IMG/VR virus record: IMGVR_UViG_3300004369_000654
Span: 1-24,773 of that record
Reading direction: 5' to 3' (one strand)
DNA from: a virus
DNA length: 24,773 nucleotides
Positions 4,533 to 24,773 of the stretch are shown one piece after another. A program made the position numbers and the translations under genes. The notes under the pieces are model-generated. The model did not search any database and was not told where the DNA came from. It saw only the letters and a list, made by a program, of their open reading frames with translations. Numbering within the stretch: position 1 is the stretch's first letter; each line of letters opens with the position of its first letter.

Positions 4533-5311
4533 TGTCAAAAAGAAAATTTAGAATAGAAGGCGGCAGATATGGAGGAGAACTTGTTTTAGGTTCAGTAAAT
4601 CCAGCATTTGCCAGTTATTACGCAGAACTAGACGATACTAGTGAATTAATTGATGCTGTATTAGAAGCAGATCAAATGGGATATGCAGAAGAGGAGGAAC
4701 CAGAAGATGCATTATTAGACCCAGATACTCCTCCTGGTCCTGCCGCAGATGCAGATGACTACTTTAACATGTGGGAGAATGATGAGTTTGAACACATTAA
4801 TAGTGCCTATGCTGATGGTGGATTCACAGTATATGAAGTTCCAGCAGATGGATCAAATGATTGGGACTATGATAAAGAAGTATATGAAGGTGAAGCAATT
4901 CATGTATATGGAAGAGAAGGCGGATACTTTAGTACTGATGACGAACCAGAAGTAATTAACGAAGAAGATGAAGACGGTAACAAATATGTACCTGTATTGA
5001 TGTTCCACAGTTGTGAGAAAGGTTCTTTTGGTGCTTGGTTTGTGGAAACAGATGAAGATTTTGATGAGTTTAAACTTGGAATGGGTGTTGTAGAAACAAA
5101 TTTAGGCGAATTTGTTGATGCTGTATTTTATGATAAAGTAGAATTAGATTGCAACTATGATTATAATGACACAACCGGTAAAAGTTATGATGCACAGGTA
5201 GGCTGGTTAAATACTAAGTGGCATGATAGTCAGGAAAACATACATGAAAACCTGGATGAATATCTTGCTGAATTTGAAGAAAACGCAGAATGGGAAAGGG
5301 AAAATAGATGA
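4532..5311 (+). CDS. Very acidic 259-residue protein, function unknown
   Basis: By hand count about 70 Asp/Glu against about 15 Lys/Arg, giving a strongly negative protein. The N-terminal 20 residues are basic (SKRKFRIEGGRYGGE); the acidity is spread along the rest, densest at about 51-95 and 138-180. A middle segment, about 149-165 (KYVPVLMFHSCEKGSFGAWF), is ordinary folded sequence. A strong ribosome site (AAGGAGG, 4521-4527) suggests high expression. No family is recognised. Acidic phage proteins sometimes mimic DNA to block host nucleases or polymerases; here that is only a possibility. It overlaps the neighbours by TAATG upstream and ATGA downstream, so translation is probably coupled. 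Confidence 0.78.
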   Translation: MSKRKFRIEGGRYGGELVLGSVNPAFASYYAELDDTSELIDAVLEADQMGYAEEEEPEDALLDPDTPPGPAADADDYFNMWENDEFEHINSAYADGGFTVYEVPADGSNDWDYDKEVYEGEAIHVYGREGGYFSTDDEPEVINEEDEDGNKYVPVLMFHSCEKGSFGAWFVETDEDFDEFKLGMGVVETNLGEFVDAVFYDKVELDCNYDYNDTTGKSYDAQVGWLNTKWHDSQENIHENLDEYLAEFEENAEWERENR

Positions 5312-6108
5312 AACGAATCTTAATTTTTGGCTTACCAGGTGCTGGTAAATCCACTCTTGCAGAAAAACTGGTTGAAGTTTTAGGAAACGCAGACTGGTAT
5401 AACGCAGACAAAATACGTGAAACATTTAATGATTGGGACTTCTCACCTGAGGGCAGAGAACGTCAATCATTGCGTATGAGAGATTATGTACGCAAAAGTG
5501 TTGCCAAAGGTAGATATGGCGTAGCAGACTTTGTTTGTCCTACAAATGAACTTCGTGAAAAGAATGTTCCAGAATATGTAATCTGGATGGATACTATTGA
5601 AGAAGGCAGGTTTGAAGACACAAATAAAATGTTTGAGCAACCTGATGGCAGTACTTTTATAAATGCTAGAATTACTGCTGATAAATGGTGGTCAGAAGAA
5701 TTACTTGAGGAATGGGCAAGGCTACTTGCAGTTGATATTAAAGATCATGAATTCCAACCAAAGCAACCAACTACACAAATGTTAGGAAGATTTCAGCCTT
5801 GGCACGAAGGACATCAAAAATTATTCGAAAGAGCACTTGATAAACACGGGCAGGTAGCAATACTTGTACGTGATATGCCATTAACAGATGACAATCCCTG
5901 GCAAGTAGATAAGATATGTGAAAACATTGAAATAGCATTGGCCGAACATGCTGGTAAATTTAGATGTTATCCTGTGCCTAATATTATGAATATTACTTAT
6001 GGCAGAGGTGTAGGTTATAAGATTGAAGAGGAAGTTCTTGATGAGGAAACGCAAAAAATTAGTGCAACTAAAATTAGAGAACAGATGAGAAAGGATGGCA
6101 AACTATAA
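5308..6108 (+). CDS. Bifunctional P-loop kinase / nucleotidyltransferase
   Basis: A 266-residue fusion. The N-terminal half is a small-molecule P-loop kinase: GLPGAGKST at 8-16, then WYNADKIRETFND and a region similar in arrangement to adenylylsulfate (APS) kinases. The C-terminal half is a HIGH-type nucleotidyltransferase: GRFQPWHEGH at 160-169 carries the H-x-G-H ATP-binding motif, and ISATKIR at 251-257 is the ISSTxxR-like motif. NMN adenylyltransferases and cytidylyltransferases share this fold. The two activities would suit successive phosphorylation and nucleotidyl transfer, for example in NAD or a modified nucleotide pathway, but the substrate is not readable. It overlaps the next gene by 14 bases. 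Confidence 0.85.
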   Translation: MKRILIFGLPGAGKSTLAEKLVEVLGNADWYNADKIRETFNDWDFSPEGRERQSLRMRDYVRKSVAKGRYGVADFVCPTNELREKNVPEYVIWMDTIEEGRFEDTNKMFEQPDGSTFINARITADKWWSEELLEEWARLLAVDIKDHEFQPKQPTTQMLGRFQPWHEGHQKLFERALDKHGQVAILVRDMPLTDDNPWQVDKICENIEIALAEHAGKFRCYPVPNIMNITYGRGVGYKIEEEVLDEETQKISATKIREQMRKDGKL

Positions 6109-6457
6109 AGTCTATGAAATAAAATTCAAAGATGGCATGGTTTATTACGGTTACACAGCAAAACCTTTTGAAATGAGAATGGCTGAGCATATAAATAGTA
6201 GCCAAAAAGGCAAGAACAAACTATATAAAAAAATGCGAAATGCAGAATACGATTGTGATTGTAGAGTCGTTAATCAATTCCCCACAATGGAAGAAGCATT
6301 GGATTGGGAAAAGAAATTAATTAGTAAAACTCCACATAAATTAAAACTTAATTCAAGTTGGGGTGGTGAAAATGGAGAAAACAATTTTAGGCGGTGGAAA
6401 CAACAGGATATCATTAAAAAACATTTCAAAAGGAAAAAGACCAAATACAAAGTTTAG
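6095..6457 (+). CDS. GIY-YIG family nuclease
   Basis: A 120-residue protein with the GIY-YIG nuclease core. The two signature strands appear as KVYEI (5-9) and YYGYT (17-21). The conserved Arg is R28 in EMRMAEH, and the metal-binding Glu is probably E72 in DWEKKLI. The C-terminus is very basic (FRRWKQQDIIKKHFKRKK), suitable for DNA contact. The length fits a stand-alone GIY-YIG domain. It could be a free-standing homing endonuclease (T4 Seg-like) or a nuclease acting on host or repair DNA. It overlaps both neighbours, which argues for a resident gene rather than a recent homing insertion. Confidence 0.8.
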   Translation: MANYKVYEIKFKDGMVYYGYTAKPFEMRMAEHINSSQKGKNKLYKKMRNAEYDCDCRVVNQFPTMEEALDWEKKLISKTPHKLKLNSSWGGENGENNFRRWKQQDIIKKHFKRKKTKYKV

Positions 6458-6706: not shown

Positions 6707-7798
6707 ATGTATCAATTTACAAGTGAAAGTGTAAGTAAAGGGCACCCAGATAAAGTAGCAGATTTAATTTCAGATGCTGTAGCAAATTATATTATAGATA
6801 AAAATATTAATCACAGAGCGGCGGTAGAAACACTAGTAACAACAAATATGGTTACACTTGCTGGTGAATACAAGAGTGATAAGTTTGATAAAGTTTATAT
6901 TGATAAACTAGTTAGGGCAGTAGTTAGAGATATCGGTTATGAACAAGAAGGATTCCATTGGGAAAATTTAAAAATTTATAATGAATTACATGGACAATCA
7001 CCTGATATAGCATTGGGTACAGATGATTTTGGTGCAGGTGATCAAGGACTTATGTTTGGTTATGCATGTAATGAAACAGAAAATTATATGCCAAGTGCTA
7101 TTCACTACAGTCACAGAATACTTAGAAAACTGCAAAGCGAAAGAACAAATGGTATATTATGGTTAGGTCCAGACAGCAAAAGCCAAGTTACAATGAAATA
7201 TGAAAGCATTAACAAACCTTTAGAAATAGAAAAAATTGTTTGTAGTACCCAACATAGTGAAGACAGAGACATCAAAGTTGTAAGGCAAAATGTTGAAGAA
7301 ATTATCAGGGACGAACTTAAAGAAATAAATTTAAGTAATGTAGAATTTTTAATAAACCCAACAGGTAGATTTGTTATTGGCGGACCTGATGGAGACACAG
7401 GACTAACAGGCAGAAAAATTATTGTTGATACTTATGGCGGATATGCTCCACATGGTGGCGGCGCATTTAGTGGTAAAGATTGCACAAAGGTTGATAGAAG
7501 TGCGGCTTACATGGCCAGATACTTGGCAAAGAATATTGTGGCAAGTGGCAAAGCCCAAAATGCCACAGTCCAATTAAGTTATGCTATTGGTGTAAAAGAA
7601 CCAACCAGTTTATATGTTTATGCAGATGGACAAATAAGAAAAGAAATTGCAGATTGGTTTATAGATAATGTAGATCTTACTCCTAAAGGTATTATAGACA
7701 AGTTTAATTTATTTGAATTAGACTTAACTAGAACAACCAATTACGGTCATTTTGGTAGATTAGATTTACCATGGGAAAAGGTAGATATATGGAATTAA
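6707..7798 (+). CDS. metK: S-adenosylmethionine synthetase
   Basis: A 363-residue MetK, which makes SAM from methionine and ATP, releasing phosphate and pyrophosphate. Diagnostic motifs are present: GHPDK (12-16), GAGDQGLMFGYA (109-120), DTGLTGRKI (230-238) and the phosphate-binding GGGAFSGKD (250-258). It is about 20 residues shorter than the E. coli enzyme (384) but spans all three repeats, so it should be active. GAGGT lies just before the ATG. It overlaps apt, forming a metK-apt pair. Viral MetK would raise SAM for methyltransferases or polyamine synthesis; no methyltransferase is seen in this window. Confidence 0.96.
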   Translation: MYQFTSESVSKGHPDKVADLISDAVANYIIDKNINHRAAVETLVTTNMVTLAGEYKSDKFDKVYIDKLVRAVVRDIGYEQEGFHWENLKIYNELHGQSPDIALGTDDFGAGDQGLMFGYACNETENYMPSAIHYSHRILRKLQSERTNGILWLGPDSKSQVTMKYESINKPLEIEKIVCSTQHSEDRDIKVVRQNVEEIIRDELKEINLSNVEFLINPTGRFVIGGPDGDTGLTGRKIIVDTYGGYAPHGGGAFSGKDCTKVDRSAAYMARYLAKNIVASGKAQNATVQLSYAIGVKEPTSLYVYADGQIRKEIADWFIDNVDLTPKGIIDKFNLFELDLTRTTNYGHFGRLDLPWEKVDIWN

Positions 7799-8328
7799 AA
7801 GATAGTATAAGAACAGTACCTGACTTTCCTATAGAAGGAATACAGTTTAGGGACATTACAAGTGTGCTAGAACGCCCAGAAGCCTTCAATAAAGCACTTA
7901 TTGATATGACTGCTGTATGTATGATGTTTAATGCTACAAAAATTGTAGCAATAGAAAGCAGAGGCTTTTTATTTGCTAGTCCTATTGCTAGAGATATGGA
8001 ACTTCCTCTAATACTTGCTCGTAAGCCAGGTAAATTACCTAATCCAACTTACCAAAGAGATTATAGTTTAGAGTATGGAAAATCAACAATTCATATACAA
8101 CAAAACTCTGATTTGACAATACACGATAAAATTGTTATAATAGATGACTTAATTGCAACTGGTGGTACCGCAAAAGCAATAGCAGGTCTTATAAGTCAAT
8201 GTTGGAATGTTCCAAAAGAAAATATTTTAGTTTTAGGTTTAATTGATCTGTTTGAACTAGGTGGTAGCTCTATGCTTAGAGATCAAGGCTACAATGTAGA
8301 AACTATTATTGAATTTGAAGGAAAGTAA
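7789..8328 (+). CDS. apt: Adenine phosphoribosyltransferase
   Basis: A 179-residue enzyme of the Apt family: adenine + PRPP gives AMP + PPi. It matches E. coli Apt closely: residues 6-27 (IRTVPDFPIEGIQFRDITSVLE), ESRGFLF (56-62), KPGKLP (79-84) and the PRPP-binding IVIIDDLIATGGTA (115-128). ATG 7789 is chosen over the in-frame ATG at 7771 because the protein then begins where bacterial Apt does and an AAAGG lies 7-8 bases upstream; it overlaps metK by 10 bases. Salvaging adenine freed from SAM metabolism or degraded host DNA would be its role. A perfect sigma70 promoter lies inside the gene. Confidence 0.95.
   Translation: MELKDSIRTVPDFPIEGIQFRDITSVLERPEAFNKALIDMTAVCMMFNATKIVAIESRGFLFASPIARDMELPLILARKPGKLPNPTYQRDYSLEYGKSTIHIQQNSDLTIHDKIVIIDDLIATGGTAKAIAGLISQCWNVPKENILVLGLIDLFELGGSSMLRDQGYNVETIIEFEGK
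8113..8141 (+). promoter_or_regulatory. Intragenic sigma70 promoter within apt (TTGACA-17-TATAAT)
   Basis: TTGACA at 8113-8118 and TATAAT at 8136-8141 with a 17-base spacer match the consensus at all 12 positions. The start would be near 8148, about 180 bases before the clamp-loader-like gene. It overlaps the codons for the Apt PRPP loop, so chance cannot be fully excluded. Confidence 0.6.
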
Positions 8329-14622: not shown

Positions 14623-14892
14623 GTGCGTAAAACAAGAAGCATCCTAGAAGAGCTAAATCAAATTTCTGTAGATAGAGACAGAAATCATGTAGTTTCTAAT
14701 AGAGGTGAGCATGTTATTGCAAGTGCTATTAGTTTATTAGAGCAAATTGATGCCTATTATGATCCTGAGACTGCAAAAGAATTAAGGAATAGACTAGTTA
14801 ATAGTATTAAAGGACGCGACGTCAAAAAGTTCTCCAGAGGAATTTCTAAAATAATTAAGGAAGCTCAGAGAGAACAAGATAATGCTAATTAA
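14623..14892 (+). CDS. Small helical late protein, function unknown
   Basis: An 89-residue protein starting with GTG, with GGAG at 14614-14617 upstream. It appears fully helical and charged (residues 1-11 MRKTRSILEEL; 35-43 AISLLEQID; 63-71 SIKGRDVKK; 75-86 GISKIIKEAQRE). First gene of the unit that starts at the late promoter 14588. I do not recognise it. Small helical late proteins in T4-like phages include prohead core components, and the adjacent genes look head-related, but that link is only positional. It overlaps the next gene by 11 bases. Confidence 0.7.
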   Translation: MRKTRSILEELNQISVDRDRNHVVSNRGEHVIASAISLLEQIDAYYDPETAKELRNRLVNSIKGRDVKKFSRGISKIIKEAQREQDNAN

Positions 14893-15718
14893 TGAAATAG
14901 TTAATAATACTCAAAGCCTTACAGAAAAATTACAATACGATTCTTCAAAGCTCTCTGATGTAAAAATGGACAATGTAACCTATAAGTGGGATAGTAACGC
15001 CCGTGTTTATAGGGAACCAGATGGCAGTATTATAGATAAAAATGGTCCTCTTTTTTATGATTTAGTAAGGCACAAAGATAATATGAATGCTAGAGTAGGA
15101 GGTACTCCCGGAGATTGGCAAGACAGAATGGCCAGGAAGGGAGTTGTTAAAGGTACTCGTAGTGCCATAGCAAAAAAAATAGGCCTTAGTGGTATGGGTA
15201 AAACAAAACGACTAGATCCTAAAGCAGGATTAGGCGCTAAAGTAGGTGCTACGGCAGGTGAGTACATCGGCAAGGGAATGGACAAAATACACAATTTTGT
15301 AAAAGGTGCAATTGGTAATACATTTAAAAAAGATCCTACCAATCAAAAGAGATATTTAAATATGCAAGGTAGTGCAAAAGGTATAGAACTTTTAAAGCAA
15401 AAAGTAAGAACAGGAGAAATTACCATGGATGAGGCAGGTGAGGTCTTACAATTTGTCCAAGGCATACATCCAAGTCAAAAAACAAAACAACCTACTAATT
15501 TCCAGAAGGCTTGGAGAATGTGGTATGCACAAAGTGATAGATATAAACAAGCATTGGATCAAAACAAAAAAGAAAGGCAAAAAATACAAAGACAGGTGGA
15601 TAAAGTAAAACAGGATAATGAAAAAATACGAGCCGCAAATGCACAAATGCCATTAAATCAAAGGACGCCAAAAAAATCCTTTATATTAGGACCTGATGGT
15701 AACCCAGCGTCAATATAG
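14882..15718 (+). CDS. Basic late protein, possible internal head protein
   Basis: A 278-residue, Lys/Arg/Gly/Gln-rich protein. The N-terminus MLINEIVNNTQSLTEKL has the look of the short acidic or hydrophobic leaders on neighbouring proteins but lacks a perfect cleavage site. PGDWQD (76-81) recurs in the 17771 product. A Gly/Ala-rich basic segment (about 97-125) and a C-terminal coiled-coil-like stretch (residues 223-245, QNKKERQKIQRQVDKVKQDNEKI) follow. It has no enzyme motif. Basic composition and position after a late promoter fit a DNA-associated virion protein, but the function is not known. Confidence 0.7.
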   Translation: MLINEIVNNTQSLTEKLQYDSSKLSDVKMDNVTYKWDSNARVYREPDGSIIDKNGPLFYDLVRHKDNMNARVGGTPGDWQDRMARKGVVKGTRSAIAKKIGLSGMGKTKRLDPKAGLGAKVGATAGEYIGKGMDKIHNFVKGAIGNTFKKDPTNQKRYLNMQGSAKGIELLKQKVRTGEITMDEAGEVLQFVQGIHPSQKTKQPTNFQKAWRMWYAQSDRYKQALDQNKKERQKIQRQVDKVKQDNEKIRAANAQMPLNQRTPKKSFILGPDGNPASI

Positions 15719-15720
15719 TC

Positions 15721-16977
15721 ATGAAATTTGCAGAAATATCAGAAAGTTTTATAAGACAAATAATCTTAGAAGCAGAAAATAAAAACACTCACTTAGAACA
15801 TCTGGAAGATAATATTTTTAACAAAGGTTTTCAAGGTGCCAAAGAAGCAATAAAATATTTGTATAGCCTACATGAAATGCTGGAAGGTCACAGTAAATCT
15901 GCAATATCAATGACAACTAAATGGGACGGTGCTCCAGCCATTATAGCAGGTAAAGATCCAGAAACAGGAAAATTTTTTGTAGGAACCAAAGGCGTATTTG
16001 CTCAGAAACCTAAAATAAATTTCACAGATAAAAACATAGAAGAAAATCATCCTGCAGAAGAATTACAGGACAAATTAAAAATAGCATTAAGATATCTTAG
16101 AAACTTAAATTGGAATACAGTGGTTCAGGGTGACATGCTTTTTACTAAAAAGGATTTACAAGTTACAAAAATAGACGGTGAAGAGGTATTGTTATTTAAG
16201 CCAAACACTATTGTTTATGCTGTACCTACTGAAAGCGATCTTGCAAAAGAAATTTTAAATGCAGAAATAGGAATTGTTTGGCATACTGAATATACTGGAG
16301 GCCCTACATTAGCAGACACCCAAGCAAAGTTTGGTTTCGATAGTAGTCAATTAGGAACTGCAAATGGTGTTTGGCACAGAGACGCAATTATTAAAGATTT
16401 TAGTGGTACAGTAACTTTTACAGCAGAAGAAAGTCAAGACATAATGGGTGCTATTACAGAAGCAAATAATTACTTAGAAAATATTGATGCAGAAACATTT
16501 GGATGGTTAGAAAAAGGTAATGATTTAATAGGAAAAGATTTTTTACAACAGTTAAAGGCACATGTAAATAATAACATCAGAGCTGGTGCATTTGACGAGC
16601 CTACTAAATTTGCACAAGGATTTGTACAAAAATATATAGACTTTATGCAAAAGAAAATAAACGGCTATAAAACACAGGCTAAACAGGACGAAATGACAGA
16701 CAAGTTAGTACAAGGTGTAAAGTTTATCAAACAAAATGTACCTCAAATTGTTGCTGTATATGATTTATATCTTAAACTAATAGAAGCAAAAGTAAAAATA
16801 GTTAAAAAATTAGAAACAATTAGACAGTTACCTACATTTAAGGAAACTGAAAACGGATATGAAGTTACAGGCGAAGAAGGATTTGTTGCTGTAGATAGAA
16901 TGGGTAACGCATTAAAACTGGTAGATAGACTGGAGTTTAGTAGATTAAACTTTGGCACAGGGAGGCCTGGAGCATAA
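15721..16977 (+). CDS. Ligase-like (KWDG) late protein of a conserved marine-phage family
   Basis: A 418-residue protein of a family common in marine T4-like phages (I believe DUF6267, from memory). The leader MKFAEISESFIRQIILEA ends in an I-L-E/A site like that of the T4 prohead protease gp21. The body shows features of covalent nucleotidyltransferases (DNA/RNA ligases): KWDG at 67-70 as motif I, FFVGTKGVF (85-93) as the following strand pair, and VVQGDML (134-140) in the place of motif III. This suggests it binds ATP or a nucleotide, or keeps the fold without activity. The second half is mostly helical (about 250-380). There is no Shine-Dalgarno sequence; the start is two bases after the previous stop. 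Confidence 0.72.
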   Translation: MKFAEISESFIRQIILEAENKNTHLEHLEDNIFNKGFQGAKEAIKYLYSLHEMLEGHSKSAISMTTKWDGAPAIIAGKDPETGKFFVGTKGVFAQKPKINFTDKNIEENHPAEELQDKLKIALRYLRNLNWNTVVQGDMLFTKKDLQVTKIDGEEVLLFKPNTIVYAVPTESDLAKEILNAEIGIVWHTEYTGGPTLADTQAKFGFDSSQLGTANGVWHRDAIIKDFSGTVTFTAEESQDIMGAITEANNYLENIDAETFGWLEKGNDLIGKDFLQQLKAHVNNNIRAGAFDEPTKFAQGFVQKYIDFMQKKINGYKTQAKQDEMTDKLVQGVKFIKQNVPQIVAVYDLYLKLIEAKVKIVKKLETIRQLPTFKETENGYEVTGEEGFVAVDRMGNALKLVDRLEFSRLNFGTGRPGA

Positions 16978-17774
16978 TGGAATTACAACTCATAGATAAA
17001 GAAATATCAGAAGCCAGGCTTTACAGAACAAGTTCAGCATTTGGACAACTTACAGGAAAAGATATATCAGAACTTTTATATTTAAATACATTAGTCACAT
17101 ATATGTTATATAAGGACGATAAACAAACTGATTATGCAAAAGCAGTTGCAAGACAAACAACGCAATATGGAAAATACACTTTGTTTAGAAGTCATGCTAC
17201 AGATATGTACTTATTAGCATATATGGTGTCTGATCCAGATAACAAAAATGTTAAATTAAAAGATCATTTAATAAGTAAGAAATTTTTAAAAGAATTGCAG
17301 TTTGATAAAAGACGCCATTGGCAATTTGTTCAGGGCATATCTTTTGACAGAGTGAATGATAAAATAGCAAGTCCCTACCTTTTTAGACTAGAAAGCCAAT
17401 TAAAAATCACAAATTCCATGTATAAACAATTTCGTAGATTAGTTATGGATTGGGAAAAGTTAAAGTACAATCAAAGGCAATATGTGGTAACAAAAATTAC
17501 ACAGGAAATACGAAGATTAGGTAGAGGTAGTGAAATAATGGCACCTCTTACCACAATGTTAAAATATAAAAGATACAGAGTAAATCCTGACATAAACAAA
17601 CCATCTTTAGGAAGAAAAGTAGCAGGTGCGGCCGCAGGTGCTTTAGTAGGTCGTTTTGCAGGTAAGAAGATTGCACAAAAATTAGGAAAAGATTCAGATA
17701 AATATAAGAAAGTAGGAACAGGCTTAGGCGCAATAGCAGGTTATTGGGCCGGCGGAAGACAAAAACAATTATGA
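16977..17774 (+). CDS. Late protein with glycine-zipper C-terminus
   Basis: A 265-residue protein. MELQLIDKEISEA at the N-terminus contains I-S-E/A (10-13), a match to the T4 prohead protease cleavage rule. The middle is helical and basic. The C-terminal region (about 212-260) has two Gly/Ala-rich segments (VAGAAAGALVGRFAG and VGTGLGAIAGYWAGG) typical of glycine-zipper membrane-inserting helices, separated by a Lys-rich loop. A head protein able to insert in a membrane could help DNA entry; this is inference. GGAG lies about eight bases before the ATG. It overlaps the next gene by ATGA. Confidence 0.7.
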   Translation: MELQLIDKEISEARLYRTSSAFGQLTGKDISELLYLNTLVTYMLYKDDKQTDYAKAVARQTTQYGKYTLFRSHATDMYLLAYMVSDPDNKNVKLKDHLISKKFLKELQFDKRRHWQFVQGISFDRVNDKIASPYLFRLESQLKITNSMYKQFRRLVMDWEKLKYNQRQYVVTKITQEIRRLGRGSEIMAPLTTMLKYKRYRVNPDINKPSLGRKVAGAAAGALVGRFAGKKIAQKLGKDSDKYKKVGTGLGAIAGYWAGGRQKQL

Positions 17775-18361
17775 AAATAAATGAAGTAATAATTTCAGAA
17801 TTAAGCCCAGAAGGACAAGCGGCTGAAAGGCAAAGAGCTCAAGGAGAGGTTAGGCTGTTATGGCAAATTGACCCGCAATTTGCTAGTAAATTTGAAAAAT
17901 CCTTCCGTAAATATGGTAAAAAAAGTGTTGATACTGCATATCAGGCCGCTATCACAGACATAGAAAAGAAAGGTGGTTCCTCAGGTGATGTAGATAAGTT
18001 AAAAAGAATTGCTAATATGCCTGGAGATTGGCAAGACGATAACAAAGTTAGGGCATTTGTGTCAGCAATTCCAAGCGGTTATAGAAAAACATTACCCAAT
18101 TATAAGGAACCAGGTGACAGAATGAGTGCCACAGGAAGAAGATGGGGCAACCAATATTATTCAGGTGGTGGCGTTGATAGTAGCGACAGTTTTGTTGATC
18201 CTAATTCTCCCGGCATCGGTCAAACTATTAAAAAAATAGGCTCAACAGCAAAAGATGTATGGCAAAACGCAAGAGCATCTAAAGGCCTTAAAATGGGTAG
18301 TCAAATTGGTAAGGCACTATCAAAATATGTATCAGGCCCTACAATCGTAGGAAAAAATTAG
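17771..18361 (+). CDS. Late protein with PGDWQD motif, function unknown
   Basis: 196 residues from ATG 17771, chosen over an upstream in-frame ATG at 17744 because it makes the usual ATGA overlap and gives an N-terminus (MKINEVIISELSPEG) like the leaders of its neighbours. A helical basic region (about 18-62) is followed by PGDWQD (84-89), shared with the 14882 product, then a Gly/Ser/Tyr-rich linker and a basic tail (about 155-196). No enzyme motif is seen. Last gene of the unit starting at 14588; no clear terminator follows. Confidence 0.68.
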   Translation: MKINEVIISELSPEGQAAERQRAQGEVRLLWQIDPQFASKFEKSFRKYGKKSVDTAYQAAITDIEKKGGSSGDVDKLKRIANMPGDWQDDNKVRAFVSAIPSGYRKTLPNYKEPGDRMSATGRRWGNQYYSGGGVDSSDSFVDPNSPGIGQTIKKIGSTAKDVWQNARASKGLKMGSQIGKALSKYVSGPTIVGKN

Positions 18362-18424: not shown

Positions 18425-18667
18425 ATGGCACAAGCAAACCCAAATGCGGCAGTCAGAGCGGCAAACGGTTTCGTAGGAAAAACTTTTATCCTCGAAGTTG
18501 ATGACGTAACATCTGTAACAGTTGAAGAGGCATGTTTAGAAGCACAAAACGAAGGTTTTGTAGTTGTAGCAGTTGAAGGTTTAACTTCAGGTTCGCACAT
18601 TGCACTACAAGGTGCATCAGCAACACCTTCTATTACAGGCGCAACATTAATCGCAACTTTCGGTTAA
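18425..18667 (+). CDS. Small virion-type protein, paralogue A
   Basis: 80 residues, MAQANPNAAVRAANGFVGKTF at the start, then an alternating hydrophobic pattern (ILEVDDVTSVTVEEACLEAQ; VVVAVEGLTSGSHIAL) and an Ala/Thr/Ser-rich end. It has its own late promoter, a strong ribosome site (TAGGAGA) and its own terminator, an arrangement suited to a very abundant product such as a capsid decoration protein. It shares MAQ, RAA, and F(V/I)GK-x-F with the 18776 product, so the two appear to be a diverged duplication. Exact role unknown. Confidence 0.78.
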   Translation: MAQANPNAAVRAANGFVGKTFILEVDDVTSVTVEEACLEAQNEGFVVVAVEGLTSGSHIALQGASATPSITGATLIATFG

Positions 18668-18683
18668 TCCGTAATAAACAAAT

Positions 18684-18713
18684 AAAAGAGGGCATTTTAT
18701 ATGCCCTTTTTTT
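18684..18713 (+). terminator. Rho-independent terminator after the 18425 gene
   Basis: AGGGCAT (18689-18695) pairs with ATGCCCT (18701-18707) across a TTTAT loop, extended by A/T pairs, followed by a run of T to 18713. Confidence 0.88.
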
Positions 18714-18723
18714 GTGGTAAAAT

Positions 18724-18731
18724 GATAAATA
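18724..18731 (+). promoter_or_regulatory. Late promoter GATAAATA before the 18776 gene
   Basis: GATAAATA just downstream of the terminator at 18684-18713, making 18776 an independent unit. The leader is homologous to that at 18371. Confidence 0.8.
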
Positions 18732-18740
18732 ATTGTAACG

Positions 18741-18754
18741 GCGATAGAATTCGC
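18741..18754 (+). promoter_or_regulatory. 5' UTR hairpin, 18776 gene
   Basis: GCGA - TAGAAT - TCGC in the leader, at the same position relative to the promoter and GTAACG as the 18388 hairpin but with a different stem sequence. The stem is short (four pairs). Confidence 0.4.
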
Positions 18755-18775
18755 TAAACAAATTAGGAGAATAAA

Positions 18776-19045
18776 ATGGCACAATCAGATAGAAGAGCGG
18801 CGGCGGCTGGTGAGTTTATTGGTAAAGACGTATTTTTAAAAAGTTTCCAACAACAATCAGGAAACATTAGTGCGGCAGAATTAACATCACTAGTTAGTTC
18901 AGTCCAAAACTTAAACCTTTCAGTATTAAAAATTGGTGACTTCACAGCAGATAGTCAAACAACTGTAAACTTTATACTAGAAGGTGCAGACAACTTAGCA
19001 AACGGTGACCTAGCAGGACACGTTATTGCAGACGTCTCATTCTAA
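18776..19045 (+). CDS. Small virion-type protein, paralogue B
   Basis: 89 residues beginning MAQSDRRAAAAGEFIGKDVFL, related at the N-terminus to the 18425 product. The body is Ser/Gln/Asn-rich with alternating hydrophobics (LTSLVSSVQNLNLSVLKIGDF; QTTVNFILEGAD) and ends HVIADVSF. Own late promoter, TAGGAGA ribosome site and terminator. As with its paralogue, the single-gene layout implies strong late expression of a structural protein. The two may assemble at equivalent sites on the virion or in different parts; not decidable here. Confidence 0.78.
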   Translation: MAQSDRRAAAAGEFIGKDVFLKSFQQQSGNISAAELTSLVSSVQNLNLSVLKIGDFTADSQTTVNFILEGADNLANGDLAGHVIADVSF

Positions 19046-19061
19046 GTTTAATATAACTTAT

Positions 19062-19092
19062 AAAAAATCCTCACTAGTTGGGGATTTTTTTT
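19062..19092 (+). terminator. Rho-independent terminator after the 18776 gene
   Basis: AAAAAATCC (19062-19070) pairs with GGATTTTTT (19082-19090), with inner pairs closing on a CTAGT loop, and T residues continue to 19092. Given the A-rich left arm it could also act on the reverse strand. Confidence 0.88.
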
Positions 19093-19126
19093 GAATAAAT
19101 TTCCTTAAAGTAAATTACTAAAAGTT

Positions 19127-19134
19127 GATAAATA
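19127..19134 (+). promoter_or_regulatory. Late promoter GATAAATA before the 19164 operon
   Basis: GATAAATA, 29 bases before ATG 19164, follows the terminator at 19062-19092. It probably drives 19164, 19580, 19816 and the giant gene at 20100. Confidence 0.8.
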
Positions 19135-19163
19135 GTTGAACAAACACAGATTTTGGAGAAAAT

Positions 19164-19571
19164 ATGGTTACAGGACAAAGAAGTGGAGCGATGGGTAGCT
19201 CAGAAGTTGTATCAGGCAATATAGAGTTTTACACGTTATTCACAAGTTTAGATATAACAAGAACCGGAAATTACTCAGATAACACACAAAAAGACTTTGA
19301 AAGTGTAGTACAGGTAATAGGTTTAAGAGCACAGCCTATAATAATGAATAACCCTGTAGAACTTAGCGGAGTAGGTGCAAACGTTTTAGAAAATTATGGA
19401 GCACCAACATTAACAGGTGCAGGATGGATTTTTAAATTTGCATTTGAACGTGAAGGAGTACATACTATAGACACATTAAAAGATGAGCTGAATGGAATTG
19501 TTTTAAATGATGGAACAGTGGATACAAAAAATTCAGTTAATATGGAATTTACTAAACAAGATTTATTATAG
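19164..19571 (+). CDS. Probable virion protein, function unknown
   Basis: A 135-residue beta-rich protein (NIEFYTLFTSLDITRTGNYS; FESVVQVIGLRAQPIIMNNP; GWIFKFAFEREGVHTID). GGAG lies just before the ATG, and a late promoter precedes it. The pattern of strands with many Asn, Thr and Gly, and the small size, are typical of phage structural or connector proteins. No specific family is recognised. First gene of the operon ending in the giant ORF. Confidence 0.7.
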   Translation: MVTGQRSGAMGSSEVVSGNIEFYTLFTSLDITRTGNYSDNTQKDFESVVQVIGLRAQPIIMNNPVELSGVGANVLENYGAPTLTGAGWIFKFAFEREGVHTIDTLKDELNGIVLNDGTVDTKNSVNMEFTKQDLL

Positions 19572-19819: not shown

Positions 19820-20100
19820 GAATAGACGAATTTACAGAAGAGCCTATCTTTGAAGCCAGAATGGTTTGGCGTAAAATAGGTAATAAAATTATCCGTGCTG
19901 TACGTTGCACTTCTGGAAGACGTAAGGGCAGGGTAGTTAAAACCGCCGGCCAATGCAACAAGCCAATTGATTTTAAAAAACGTCTTACAATAAAAAAAAA
20001 CAAAGCAAAGTTTGGTGCTAGAATGGCCAGACGAGCTCAAAGAACAAAAAGATTTAACATAAAAAGCAAACAAGTAAGAGCTTTAAACAGAAGAAGATAA
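19816..20100 (+). CDS. Very basic 94-residue protein, probable internal head protein
   Basis: Start set at ATG 19816 (ATGA overlap with the previous gene) rather than at an upstream in-frame ATG at 19741 that would overlap the membrane gene. The leader MRIDEFTEEPIFE is acidic and ends in I-F-E/A, the T4 gp21-type site. After it, the remaining 81 residues hold 31 Lys/Arg (by count) and a single acidic residue, with no membrane segment. Two Cys (in VRCTSG and GQCNKP) could bind metal or form a disulfide. The composition is that of a DNA-binding protein packed with the genome. It is followed by the giant gene with a one-base overlap (TAATG). Confidence 0.75.
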   Translation: MRIDEFTEEPIFEARMVWRKIGNKIIRAVRCTSGRRKGRVVKTAGQCNKPIDFKKRLTIKKNKAKFGARMARRAQRTKRFNIKSKQVRALNRRR

Positions 20101-23100
20101 TGAAGTTTAGACATATCAAAACACTTGAGCATTTTTTAAAAGAATACGGTGCTAGTAGTAGTGGAAGTCCTACGCCTGTAGGACAACAAAAAATGGGGAC
20201 TTCTGTCGCAAATAAAAATCCAAATGTAGATCTAGGACAAAACGCATCAGTAAAACCTAAACTCATGCCGGCCAAAGACCTTGGTAAGGGTGATTTTGTT
20301 TTTGATAAAACATCAAAAAAACTAAATCAAGTTGTTTCACCAGTAGGGGCAGGTGATTTACCAGATGCATTAGTAACTCAAAATGACAAAAAAGAATATC
20401 AGGTAATAAAACAAACAGACAATGTAGATGCTGTAATAAACCCTAATAAAGATAATGATTCTGATATACAAACTCTTGATGATCCAAAACAAAGTTTTAT
20501 ACAAAAGCATAAAGGTAATTTGTACAAGGGAGCAGATTTTGCCAAAAAAATAATGAGCTCTAAAGATAATGAAGAGCAAACTGAAGGCAAACTCAGTAAT
20601 ATTGCAAAACGCAAAGGCAAAAAAATAAAAATTAAAGATTTAAAAGCCAAAATTAAAAAACTTTCTAGAAAAAGATTAAAAGAAGCCAACCCAGCATTGT
20701 TTGAAATAAACTTTAATAAAAAAGAAATAGCCATAGAGGCCTTAGACATGCCAGTAAAGTGTGGCTTTGAAGCAGAAACATTTTTTTATGGTATAGAAGG
20801 TTCAGGTTCTTCTGATGTTGATGATATGAGCATCAGTGAAATCGAATACGAATATGGTGATTTACCAGATCAAGCATACGAAGACTTTGAAGATTGGTTA
20901 TATGATAAAGGACAATCAGAATTCTTGGACGACTTAGTAAGTGATAAAGTCCAAGAAGTCAGAGAAGATGAAGAATGGTTGAACGACTTTATAGACAGCA
21001 GTAGTGGCCCAAGTTCAGAAGCAATCGAAATATACAAAAAAGATTTTGAAGAAAACGATCCAAAAGAATACGAAAACCGTGAGGAAGATGGTTGGGAATA
21101 TATAAACTGGGTCAGAGAATATGTAGAAGAAGAATACGAAGATGAGTATTTGGCTTGGCTTAATGATGCAGTCAGACAAGAATATGATTTAAATGATGAG
21201 GCCAAAGAAGCCGCAAGAGATAACTACAGTATGGATGACATGGTATATGACATAGGCAGTTATATGAGCAGTTTCCTTGATGACTATGATTACGAATATG
21301 GCAGTAGCGGAGGTGGTGTGTCAGATGTTGCTAATGAACTGTATAATGGCTGGATAGAAAAAAATAGTAGTTTTAATGAGTACCCAGAATCAGGAGATTA
21401 TGGAGACACTTATACAACAACCTCATGGGCAGTAGAAAAAGACAGCAGTATAGATCCCGATGAAGGCGCGGCCGCAGAATTAATATCACCAGTATATAGT
21501 TCTCCAAGAGACATGCTCAAAGAAATGAAAAGTCTGTTTGACTGGAGTGAAAAAAACTTTGGCACTAATAATACCACAGGTTTGCATGTCACAATGAGCT
21601 GGAACGGTCCTAGAGATGGAGATGCAACATTAGGAGGACTAGAACCTAACAAATTAAAAATGGCATTGTTATTAGGTGACGAATACTTATTAGCACAATG
21701 GGGGAGACTTAGAAACACTTATACAAAAAGCCAATATCAGAATTTATTAAAACATGCAGAAGATATGAAACGTGGTAATAAAGAGAGTTTCTTAACGTTA
21801 CAAAAAGAATTAGAAAAAGGCATTAGCAGAGAAAAGTTTTCAAGTATTCATTTTAAAAACCAAAAAGATAATGATAGCGAAAATGAATTAATAGAATTTA
21901 GAATAATGGGTGGTGCTGACTACAACACAATGTATGAAAAAGTTGTTAAAACAGTTGTAAGATATGCAACCATTATGAAGGCAGGTTATGATAAAGATGC
22001 GTTTAGAACAGATTATATAAATGCTTTGTTTAGGTTAATTCGTAAGAGCCAAGAGATAGATCCTGAAAAAGTAAAAGAACTAGAAGTTCATAATCATCCT
22101 GTGATAGATTCTGCAAAAGAAATAGTTGGTAAAAAAGATTATTTTGATGTTATAAGATTTTTAAATAATTCTGTTAATTATTTTAACGAATACGAAGAAT
22201 TAAGTGATTCAGAAGCAGATAAAAAATGGAAACAGAGTGTCAAAGATTTTGAAAAAGGCACAGGCAGTAAAATGGACATTGTTGAGCAACGTCCCACAGT
22301 AGCAGGAGACATCCGGCATCGTGGTGACACAGTAGCAGGAGAGCCAATCACAGGTTATATTCAACCAGATGCAATAGCACCTAGCAAAAGAGCACCAGCA
22401 GTATTAAAAAAATCTCAGGAAATGTTTGGTAGGGCAGTAACACTTCTTGCAAGAGATATTGCTGACAATAAAGCGAGAGGAATGCCTAATGCAAAAAGCA
22501 TAAGAATATTCAGAGAATATGCTAACAAAATAAAATTAAACAGTAAAACTTTAGAAAAAATTGCCATCCAAAGTATGGATGACTTAAACTTTAATGGTAC
22601 TGACAAAGAGAACATAGTAAGATTACAAAAAGGTGTACAAAGTTTATTTAAACAAGACATTATAAGTAAACCAACCTTTCTAACACCACAAGAAATAGAT
22701 GCTATACTTAAAAAGTCCTGGCAGTTTGCAATGTCTGATGATAAAAAAGATAATATTAAATTAAATAAATTTATAGAATTATTAGTAAAAGTATCTCCCT
22801 ACAAAGATACAGAACAAGTACAAGATGCGTTAAGACAGATATTTAACACAAGGCAGGAAAACGAATTTGCTAGATATATGAAAGGAGGGTCTTACGGAAG
22901 TAGTGGTTTATTAAAGGCAGGAAAAATAACAACTCCTGGTGCTGTTAAAGAATTACTATCCTTCCTGGAACCATATAGTGGATATGAACATCCTACAAGT
23001 CCAGATCATCATATCAATATAAGAAGTGATGACAACTATGAAAATGTTGCACAGATGAGACTGATACAGAGGATGAGAGATCGTATGGATCATTTACAAG

Positions 23101-24773
23101 ATTTACAAACTGAGGACAAAGAAAAATATCAAAGCATAGTAAAGCAATTAGGATCAATTGGACAAGACTTTATAACTGCATTGAAGCCGGTAGACTTTGA
23201 AAAAGAACTTGGATTAAAAGACAATGATCAAGATGGTAGAAATTTCCTAGGACTAGCACTCTTCGTCAACAGACACAGTGACCGACTCAATAAATGGAAC
23301 AACACCTTAGATTCCATAGTAAAGATGTCTAAACCTGATCAGGACACGTGGAATTTTACAAAATCATACGATGATTTAGTTTTTAGCCAGATTAATATAC
23401 CTGAATATTATAAAGCAAAATCACGTGATCCTGGTAATTATGAATCGTTAGAAATAAAAGCATTACTTAAGGAAAGATTTGCGGCGATTAAAAAATTCCT
23501 AACAGGATTTGATAAAATTTTCCAAAAGGAAGGTTTCCTGGATTTAAAATCCGAAATAAAAAATAAAAATCAACTGGACAAACGCAACAAAGATTTTGAA
23601 AAGAATATCAGAGGCTCTGAAAAAACTAAATTTAATATACCAGCACACAGTTGGGTATATATAGATAGAGAATTTTTTGACACTATCACAGATGAAGACT
23701 ACAGTGACAGAGAGGCATACTTGGAAAATCATTTAGAACATTTTAATGAAGAACTAAACACAGGTAAAGTTTATGTAATTGCCTCCAGTCATTTTGGCGA
23801 TGCCGGAGATGCCACGAACGGTTTGGATCTTATTGATACATTTGAAAAAAATAAAAACTATTATCATACTTGGAGAAGAACTGGTTATAATAAAATACTC
23901 AGCAAATTTAAACAAACGTATGGAATTTCCTGGAGACAATTAACTGGCGAAAAGATAGCAGATAAAACATTAATACAGGGTGACGGTGATGTATATCGTA
24001 AATTACAGGATATTGGTATTGCAGTCACACACAAAGGCGACAGCAGAAAAGGTGTGGACGGTGTACAAGATTTAGTTCCAGATAATGAAACAGAAAACCC
24101 AAGAAGTGGCGAACCACTTAACAGAGGTAGCAGTATGAGTTGGGAAAACATCAATGATGATGCTGAAGAAAAACGTTTTAAAGCATTTGATTGGAGTGTG
24201 TACCCTGAACAAATGAAAGGGTTAGTTGCCAAAGAAATGAAAGACAAAACATCCAGTTATGGCAGTTTCCAAGTAGCACTGGACAATATACTTAAAAGAG
24301 TATTAGACGGTAATACAGGTATTGAAATAGACACTAACAAAAATAGCATAATAAGAGCGGCTGATGTAGAAGGCTACATAAAAGACCATTCAGCAAAAAT
24401 AGGTGCTGAAACTAATTGGACAAATCTAGCAGATCATTTAGGTATAGCACGTGGTGTAAATGACCAAGGTGTAGAACTGCTAAAGATAACATATAGTATG
24501 TTCGATAAAAGCACCCAAGGTAACTTTGCCGCAGATGGTGTCAGTATAGAAAGGTGGTTAGATGCTGTACAAAAATCCAAAGAATATATACAAAAAAATT
24601 ATACTGTAAGTGGTGGAAATTATTTTAGAGACAAAGATTACGTTGGTGGCAGATTAGGCGGACCTGAAGATGCAGAAAGAACAATATCAACACCACCAGA
24701 AAAAGAATTTAATTCAGATTACGATTTAGCAAGAAGTCGTTGGCCTAAGTTTGATGAAATGATGCGAAATGGT
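20100..24773 (+). CDS. Giant late protein with amidoligase-like domain (3' end beyond window)
   Basis: An open frame of 1558 codons from ATG 20100 to the edge with no stop. The leader MKFRHIKTLEHFLKEYG resembles T4 capsid-targeting leaders (K-T-x-x-x-F-(I/L)-x-E). Residues about 217-640 match the COOH-NH2 ligase (amidoligase) family of glutamine-synthetase-like fold: CGFEAET (221-227, the G-x-E-x-E motif), TGLHV (493-497) and FSSIHF (580-585) with EFRIMGG (599-605). Between the first two motifs lies an unusually long, acidic, Tyr-rich insert (about 240-440). The remaining 900 residues are helical and charged, with no family seen. It would form an ATP-dependent amide bond on an unknown substrate. 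TAATG overlap with the upstream gene indicates coupled translation. Confidence 0.8.
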   Translation, partial: MKFRHIKTLEHFLKEYGASSSGSPTPVGQQKMGTSVANKNPNVDLGQNASVKPKLMPAKDLGKGDFVFDKTSKKLNQVVSPVGAGDLPDALVTQNDKKEYQVIKQTDNVDAVINPNKDNDSDIQTLDDPKQSFIQKHKGNLYKGADFAKKIMSSKDNEEQTEGKLSNIAKRKGKKIKIKDLKAKIKKLSRKRLKEANPALFEINFNKKEIAIEALDMPVKCGFEAETFFYGIEGSGSSDVDDMSISEIEYEYGDLPDQAYEDFEDWLYDKGQSEFLDDLVSDKVQEVREDEEWLNDFIDSSSGPSSEAIEIYKKDFEENDPKEYENREEDGWEYINWVREYVEEEYEDEYLAWLNDAVRQEYDLNDEAKEAARDNYSMDDMVYDIGSYMSSFLDDYDYEYGSSGGGVSDVANELYNGWIEKNSSFNEYPESGDYGDTYTTTSWAVEKDSSIDPDEGAAAELISPVYSSPRDMLKEMKSLFDWSEKNFGTNNTTGLHVTMSWNGPRDGDATLGGLEPNKLKMALLLGDEYLLAQWGRLRNTYTKSQYQNLLKHAEDMKRGNKESFLTLQKELEKGISREKFSSIHFKNQKDNDSENELIEFRIMGGADYNTMYEKVVKTVVRYATIMKAGYDKDAFRTDYINALFRLIRKSQEIDPEKVKELEVHNHPVIDSAKEIVGKKDYFDVIRFLNNSVNYFNEYEELSDSEADKKWKQSVKDFEKGTGSKMDIVEQRPTVAGDIRHRGDTVAGEPITGYIQPDAIAPSKRAPAVLKKSQEMFGRAVTLLARDIADNKARGMPNAKSIRIFREYANKIKLNSKTLEKIAIQSMDDLNFNGTDKENIVRLQKGVQSLFKQDIISKPTFLTPQEIDAILKKSWQFAMSDDKKDNIKLNKFIELLVKVSPYKDTEQVQDALRQIFNTRQENEFARYMKGGSYGSSGLLKAGKITTPGAVKELLSFLEPYSGYEHPTSPDHHINIRSDDNYENVAQMRLIQRMRDRMDHLQDLQTEDKEKYQSIVKQLGSIGQDFITALKPVDFEKELGLKDNDQDGRNFLGLALFVNRHSDRLNKWNNTLDSIVKMSKPDQDTWNFTKSYDDLVFSQINIPEYYKAKSRDPGNYESLEIKALLKERFAAIKKFLTGFDKIFQKEGFLDLKSEIKNKNQLDKRNKDFEKNIRGSEKTKFNIPAHSWVYIDREFFDTITDEDYSDREAYLENHLEHFNEELNTGKVYVIASSHFGDAGDATNGLDLIDTFEKNKNYYHTWRRTGYNKILSKFKQTYGISWRQLTGEKIADKTLIQGDGDVYRKLQDIGIAVTHKGDSRKGVDGVQDLVPDNETENPRSGEPLNRGSSMSWENINDDAEEKRFKAFDWSVYPEQMKGLVAKEMKDKTSSYGSFQVALDNILKRVLDGNTGIEIDTNKNSIIRAADVEGYIKDHSAKIGAETNWTNLADHLGIARGVNDQGVELLKITYSMFDKSTQGNFAADGVSIERWLDAVQKSKEYIQKNYTVSGGNYFRDKDYVGGRLGGPEDAERTISTPPEKEFNSDYDLARSRWPKFDEMMRNG

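Follow-up and report, generated by a model that had tools for sequence, protein, structure and literature searches.

We analysed a 24,773-base fragment of viral DNA from IMG/VR (hereafter the window), which has T4-like replication genes on board and in which the replicative helicase and primase genes adjoin an ORF on the plus strand (15721-16977) that starts from ATG and encodes a protein of 418 aa. This protein passes the Pfam gathering cut-off of 27 for PF19782 (DUF6267; 345.7 bits, E=5e-103) and matches phrog_455, annotated as of unknown function, among the PHROGs; PF19782 is likewise matched by 97 of 97 family members. By tblastn, DUF6267 occurs in 467 phage records, with cyanophages in the majority and Pelagibacter, Methylophilales, Stenotrophomonas and Vibrio phages also represented. 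DUF6267 was not found by name in the open literature searched, searches of PDB sequences, whether run with the protein or with profiles, gave no relevant match, PADLOC matched nothing, and no ligase family of Pfam was among the matches listed.

The genes on either side, all on the plus strand, begin in ways that bear on the N-terminus discussed below. The preceding gene (14882-15718) starts with MLINEIVNNTQSLTE↓K (arrows mark putative cleavage points), the gene that follows (16977-17774) has a leader with EISE↓AR and a homologue that is fused to DUF6267 in contig L155, and the next one (17771-18361) has the leader-like start MKINEVIISEL, with a loose leader pattern in 17 of its 32 family members. 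Further downstream, 18425-19571 encodes three small proteins (two with an MAQ start) from families that close relatives also have downstream of DUF6267, and an ORF of >1558 aa with the leader-like start MKFRHIKTLEHFLKEYGA runs off the end of the window (20100-24773); it contains a GFEAETFF...GLHVTMSW stretch that looks amidoligase-like by eye and has no Pfam match. Elsewhere in the window, an S-adenosylmethionine synthetase gene and a phosphoribosyltransferase gene, by eye of the adenine type, overlap within 6707-8328, and a TonB-dependent receptor plug domain was recognised (PF07715, E=9e-8) in a 661-aa protein of this phage fragment (57-2042). The original prediction had described the DUF6267 product as a late protein, a label that the window does not bear out: no T4-type late promoter TATAAATA lies near the gene, and the single copy of this sequence in the window is at 6190, away from it.

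It had also been proposed that TKWDGAPAI (aa 66-74), FFVGTKGVF (aa 85-93) and VVQGDML (aa 134-140) mirror motifs I, Ia and III of covalent nucleotidyltransferases. All three stretches are present, and the ordered set is completed by motifs IIIa, IV and V, which that first reading had missed. Motif I (TKWDG, aa 66-70; 15916-15930, plus strand, as are all motifs) holds the predicted AMP-accepting lysine K67, motif Ia (TKGVF, aa 89-93; 15985-15999) the invariant K90, and motif III (VVQGDML; 16120-16140) has D138 in place of the E that is usual in ligases. Motif IIIa (PNTIVYAVP, aa 161-169; 16201-16227) contains Y166, by its position the likely base-stacking residue, and is followed by motif IV (EGFVAVD, aa 386-392; 16876-16896) with E386 and G387, and by motif V (ALKLVDR, aa 397-403; 16909-16929), in which K399 and R403 are kept and the second lysine of the KxK signature is absent. 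Ahead of motif I lies a family-specific block, THLEHLED (aa 23-30; 15787-15810), with a near-invariant H27. When conservation was scored over 221 distinct DUF6267 homologues, D69, K90, D138, Y166 and H188 were kept in 221/221 and K67, E386, G387 and K399 in 220/221. The predicted catalytic lysine is thus anything but variable, the sole exception at K67 (L209) being a short, odd copy; the two departures from the ligase canon, D for E in motif III and the single lysine in motif V, are constant as well.

A strict ordered pattern (KxDG, K/R, EGxV and K at ligase-like spacing) arose in 113 of 20,000 shuffles of the DUF6267 protein (0.6%), and among 87 ORFs of at least 250 aa from other phage DNA only the DUF6267 orthologue carried it. 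A second KIDG at aa 150 was disregarded because it lies outside the conserved columns. We also considered that the ligase-like protein might serve as a scaffold in the virion or in assembly without catalysing a reaction, as the N-terminal leader, the D in motif III and the one lysine in motif V would allow, but all catalytic positions are conserved almost without exception in the 221 homologues, which renders this very improbable.

Structure prediction points the same way. AlphaFold2 modelling of the window protein from 97 family sequences gave a pLDDT of 86.3 and a pTM of 0.81. Because a helical insert between motifs IIIa and IV (aa 235-364; 16423-16812, plus strand; delimited by DSSP of the AF2 models and shorter in compact homologues) may confuse fold searches, we also modelled a compact 296-aa homologue with a smaller insert (55 sequences, pLDDT 92.8). 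In VIA comparisons, RNA or DNA ligases made up 49 of the best 50 rows for the window model, with a Naegleria RNA ligase in the best row (Z 8.6, rmsd 3.9, 182 aligned), and all of the best 50 for the compact model (Naegleria RNA ligase: Z 9.5, rmsd 3.5, 176 aligned), Z scores of 8-9.5 being middling. With Foldseek, ligases accounted for 44 of the best 50 rows for the compact model, and in plain Foldseek against the PDB no match of either model reached E<=0.001. The full model returned unrelated folds from plain Foldseek, the long helical insert being the probable cause; these were discarded, and the compact homologue gave the better result. A profile-profile comparison (hhalign) of DUF6267 with one narrow T4 Rnl2 alignment yielded no significant score. 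Since neither Foldseek nor profile comparison was significant, the link to ligases is one of predicted fold and conserved motifs, without detectable sequence homology. Ordered motifs and a nucleotidyltransferase fold, which are marks of the superfamily, are both found, the fold in the models alone, and the predicted fold aligned with polynucleotide ligases and not with an unrelated architecture. DUF6267 is therefore predicted to belong, as a divergent family, to the superfamily of covalent nucleotidyltransferases (polynucleotide ligases), and we consider it likely, with high confidence from the models and the conservation, that its members fold like ligases and keep a catalytic lysine.

The nearest VIA fold, the RNA ligase of Naegleria gruberi (Rnl5 type; PDB 6vt3, 5cou), has the nucleotidyltransferase domain in common with DUF6267, and the alignment falls mostly on residues 143-339 of the Naegleria enzyme; sequence similarity between the two was not detected. 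Whereas Rnl5 RNA ligases have an OB domain at the N-terminus, DUF6267 lacks one (the 36 residues ahead of motif I in the compact form are too few, which rules out such a domain there), and it differs further by the helical insert and the D of motif III. T4 RNA ligases 1 and 2 share with DUF6267 the motif order, a comparable spacing, the phage context and a fold match (Z about 7.5). Rnl1 and Rnl2 RNA ligases have a C-terminal domain beyond motif V, whereas DUF6267 ends about 15-19 residues past this motif without such a domain. Lacking both the C-terminal and the OB domain, DUF6267 is placed neither with Rnl1/Rnl2 nor with Rnl5. DNA ligases are present among the structural matches too and, together with the adjoining replicative helicase and primase genes, they could be taken to point to a DNA ligase whose task is to seal or protect the phage genome at entry or packaging. 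However, VIA ranks RNA ligases above DNA ligases and neither a DNA-binding nor an OB domain is seen in DUF6267. Moreover, T4-type genomes are circularly permuted and end-redundant, and we know of no need for end sealing in them. We regard a DNA ligase as decidedly unlikely.

The window protein begins with the leader MKFAEISESFIRQIILE↓A (aa 1-17; 15721-15771, plus strand), a predicted head-targeting propeptide that ends in an I/L-x-E↓A site (IILE↓A, predicted cut at 17), as judged from pLDDT and from its likeness to T4 internal proteins. Model confidence is low in this region (pLDDT <50 for residues 6-22), and leaderless homologues have no counterpart of residues 1-17. The claim of a head-type leader held up: T4 IPII and IPIII start with MKTYQEFIAE↓A, a known capsid-targeting sequence, and gp21 cleaves after L/I-x-E (PMC9026906); the leaders of DUF6267 homologues resemble this start (for example MKFTEYLTE, MHSFKQYLNE and MLSFKNYLAE), and the window protein has a predicted propeptide within the range of 10-19 residues with an L/I-x-E site. 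T4 IPI-III and Alt share with DUF6267 a short N-terminal propeptide of the cleavable type and predicted delivery together with the genome, yet their folds are unrelated to that of DUF6267, Alt being an ADP-ribosyltransferase and IPI-III small proteins. A strict aromatic leader regex was dropped, as it missed both the window's own leader and those of T4. A loose pattern matched 73 of 96 DUF6267 representatives versus 82 of 603 other ORFs on the same contigs (Fisher p about 4e-35 with sequences treated as unrelated), a p value that is only indicative because of the relatedness of the sequences and because the pattern was settled on with the data in view; the replacement of the strict regex by looser ones makes all leader statistics post hoc. 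A T4-IP-like leader is found on most non-cyanophage DUF6267 homologues, with Methylophilales phage Melnitz and Pelagibacter phage HTVC008M as cultured examples, and in the tree the leaderless copies group mainly in cyanophages and compact forms (L167 was wrongly labelled leaderless). The L155 fusion joins DUF6267 to a counterpart of the next window gene, and an LMTE↓AR site lies at the joint.

The usual gene partner of DUF6267 is a cytidylyltransferase/NMNAT-like protein (T4-GC 190, phrog_395), which is encoded by the next gene in S-PRM1, P-HM2, S-RIM8 and S-SZBM1 and is fused to DUF6267 in S-PM2. Leaders also occur on such partner proteins, namely S-SZBM1_140 (MRFRQFIIEA), S-SCSM1_91 (MKSFLQFLKEA) and S-CREM2_154 (MKNFSSFLTEA), all three of which were found in virions by mass spectrometry (PMC9146016, PMC9602691, PMC10665884). 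Virion-borne cyanophage proteins of this type thus share the leader with DUF6267 and lie next to or are fused with it in many relatives; they are HxGH nucleotidylyltransferases, whereas DUF6267 is a predicted covalent lysyl-nucleotidyltransferase. By analogy with these same-leader partners, leader-bearing DUF6267 is probably packaged in the head. For leader-bearing DUF6267 itself, our search turned up no published virion mass spectrometry; the S-SZBM1 copy, which has no leader, is missing from the short S-SZBM1 virion list (30 proteins), an absence that agrees with the leader's proposed role but is weak evidence, and the S-SCSM1 and S-CREM2 regions examined contain no DUF6267. The lack of such spectrometry in the literature searched, the leaderless copies in cyanophages and the adjoining replication genes would suit a non-virion enzyme of the replication phase whose leader is an ordinary N-terminal helix. 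This we hold to be rather unlikely in view of the three virion-detected proteins with the same leader, the match to the T4 IP leader with its I/L-x-E cleavage site, and the LMTE↓AR site inside the L155 fusion.

We then asked what the neighbourhood of DUF6267 in relatives implies for its substrate. In some relatives, a leader-bearing P-loop kinase and a HAD protein, found at 6 loci each, match phage polynucleotide-kinase families, and nucleotidyltransferase domains of the pol-beta type are either fused to the NMNAT-like protein or, in S-CREM2, present as a virion protein. Beside the DUF6267 gene of the window itself, no kinase, phosphatase or pol-beta parts were identified. At 5308-6108 the window does encode a leaderless fusion of a P-loop kinase and a cytidylyltransferase-like domain, which has only weak similarity to neighbour genes of the relatives. 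By eye, nuclease-like stretches seem to be present in two further sets of genes: L210 and L211, on contigs binned as Firmicutes, encode proteins of about 930 aa in which DUF6267 and a cytidylyltransferase-like part are joined to a nuclease-like C-terminal stretch, and leader-bearing genes just upstream of DUF6267 (L140:3169-3969, L082:4938-5993 and L085:3917-4999) contain PD-(D/E)XK-nuclease-like D...xEIK/xSLK stretches and have no Pfam match.

The kinase, phosphatase, pol-beta and ligase functions around DUF6267 relatives resemble phage RNA-repair sets (PMC7824862, PMC3014915). T4 Pnkp with Rnl1 and the jumbo-phage RlaP sets (PMC7824862) show this combination, which is partly reproduced around DUF6267 in some relatives. 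The T4 set is made in the cell after infection, Rnl1 early (PMC3014915), whereas leader-bearing DUF6267 is predicted to be delivered from the head. Because of the leader-bearing PNK-like, HAD, pol-beta and NMNAT-like neighbours, we favour nucleic-acid end repair, most likely of RNA, over genome-end sealing. The original prediction therefore stands in its ligase-type fold (as a prediction), catalytic motifs and head-type leader, but not in its idea that genome ends are sealed or protected, a possible role for which we see no specific support. Alternatively, the fold and the lysine adenylylation could be read correctly and the AMP passed to a target other than nucleic acid, be it a small molecule or a protein of the host, in a chemistry that the NMNAT-like partner would feed or share. 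The close association with an HxGH nucleotidylyltransferase, by tight linkage or by fusion, the missing ligase C-terminal domain and the family-specific conserved H27, H188, N283 and K357 are in keeping with such a target, but RNA ligases are the nearest folds and some relatives have polynucleotide-kinase-like neighbours, and we judge it unlikely.

Our preferred reading, to which we assign a probability of about 0.6, is that DUF6267 is a ligase-type lysine-adenylating enzyme that would be packaged in the head and most likely serve early-infection repair of nucleic-acid, probably RNA, ends; this value follows from our high confidence in fold and lysine taken together with our lesser confidence in packaging. 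In this scheme, K67 would attack ATP (or NAD+) to form lysyl-AMP in a pocket that K90, D138, Y166, E386 and K399 may line, and the AMP would be handed from K67 to a 5'-phosphate end for joining. Because of the T4 internal-protein-type leader, the protein of this phage and of most non-cyanophage relatives is predicted to enter the prohead, lose its leader there to the prohead protease, which would cut after I-L-E, and be injected with the DNA. Once injected, DUF6267 could repair nucleic-acid ends before early genes are expressed, the most likely substrate being RNA, such as tRNA cut by host anticodon nucleases. The role in RNA-end repair is the least certain part and, at somewhat less than even odds, we propose it tentatively.

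More speculatively, many marine T4-like phages might carry an in-head nucleic-acid end-repair kit that reverses host-defence RNA damage before phage gene expression. Such a kit, which we think somewhat improbable as a whole, would consist of the DUF6267 ligase and the NMNAT-like enzyme, joined in some phages by a PNK-like kinase, a HAD phosphatase and pol-beta, all with T4-type leaders and injected with the genome. DUF6267, present in >460 phage records and with no assigned function, can now be put to the test as an enzyme, since a fold and a catalytic lysine are predicted for it and a virion route is likely. Should it prove to be both packaged and active, it would count as a ligase delivered from the head and would lengthen the short list of enzymes that are co-injected with a phage genome.
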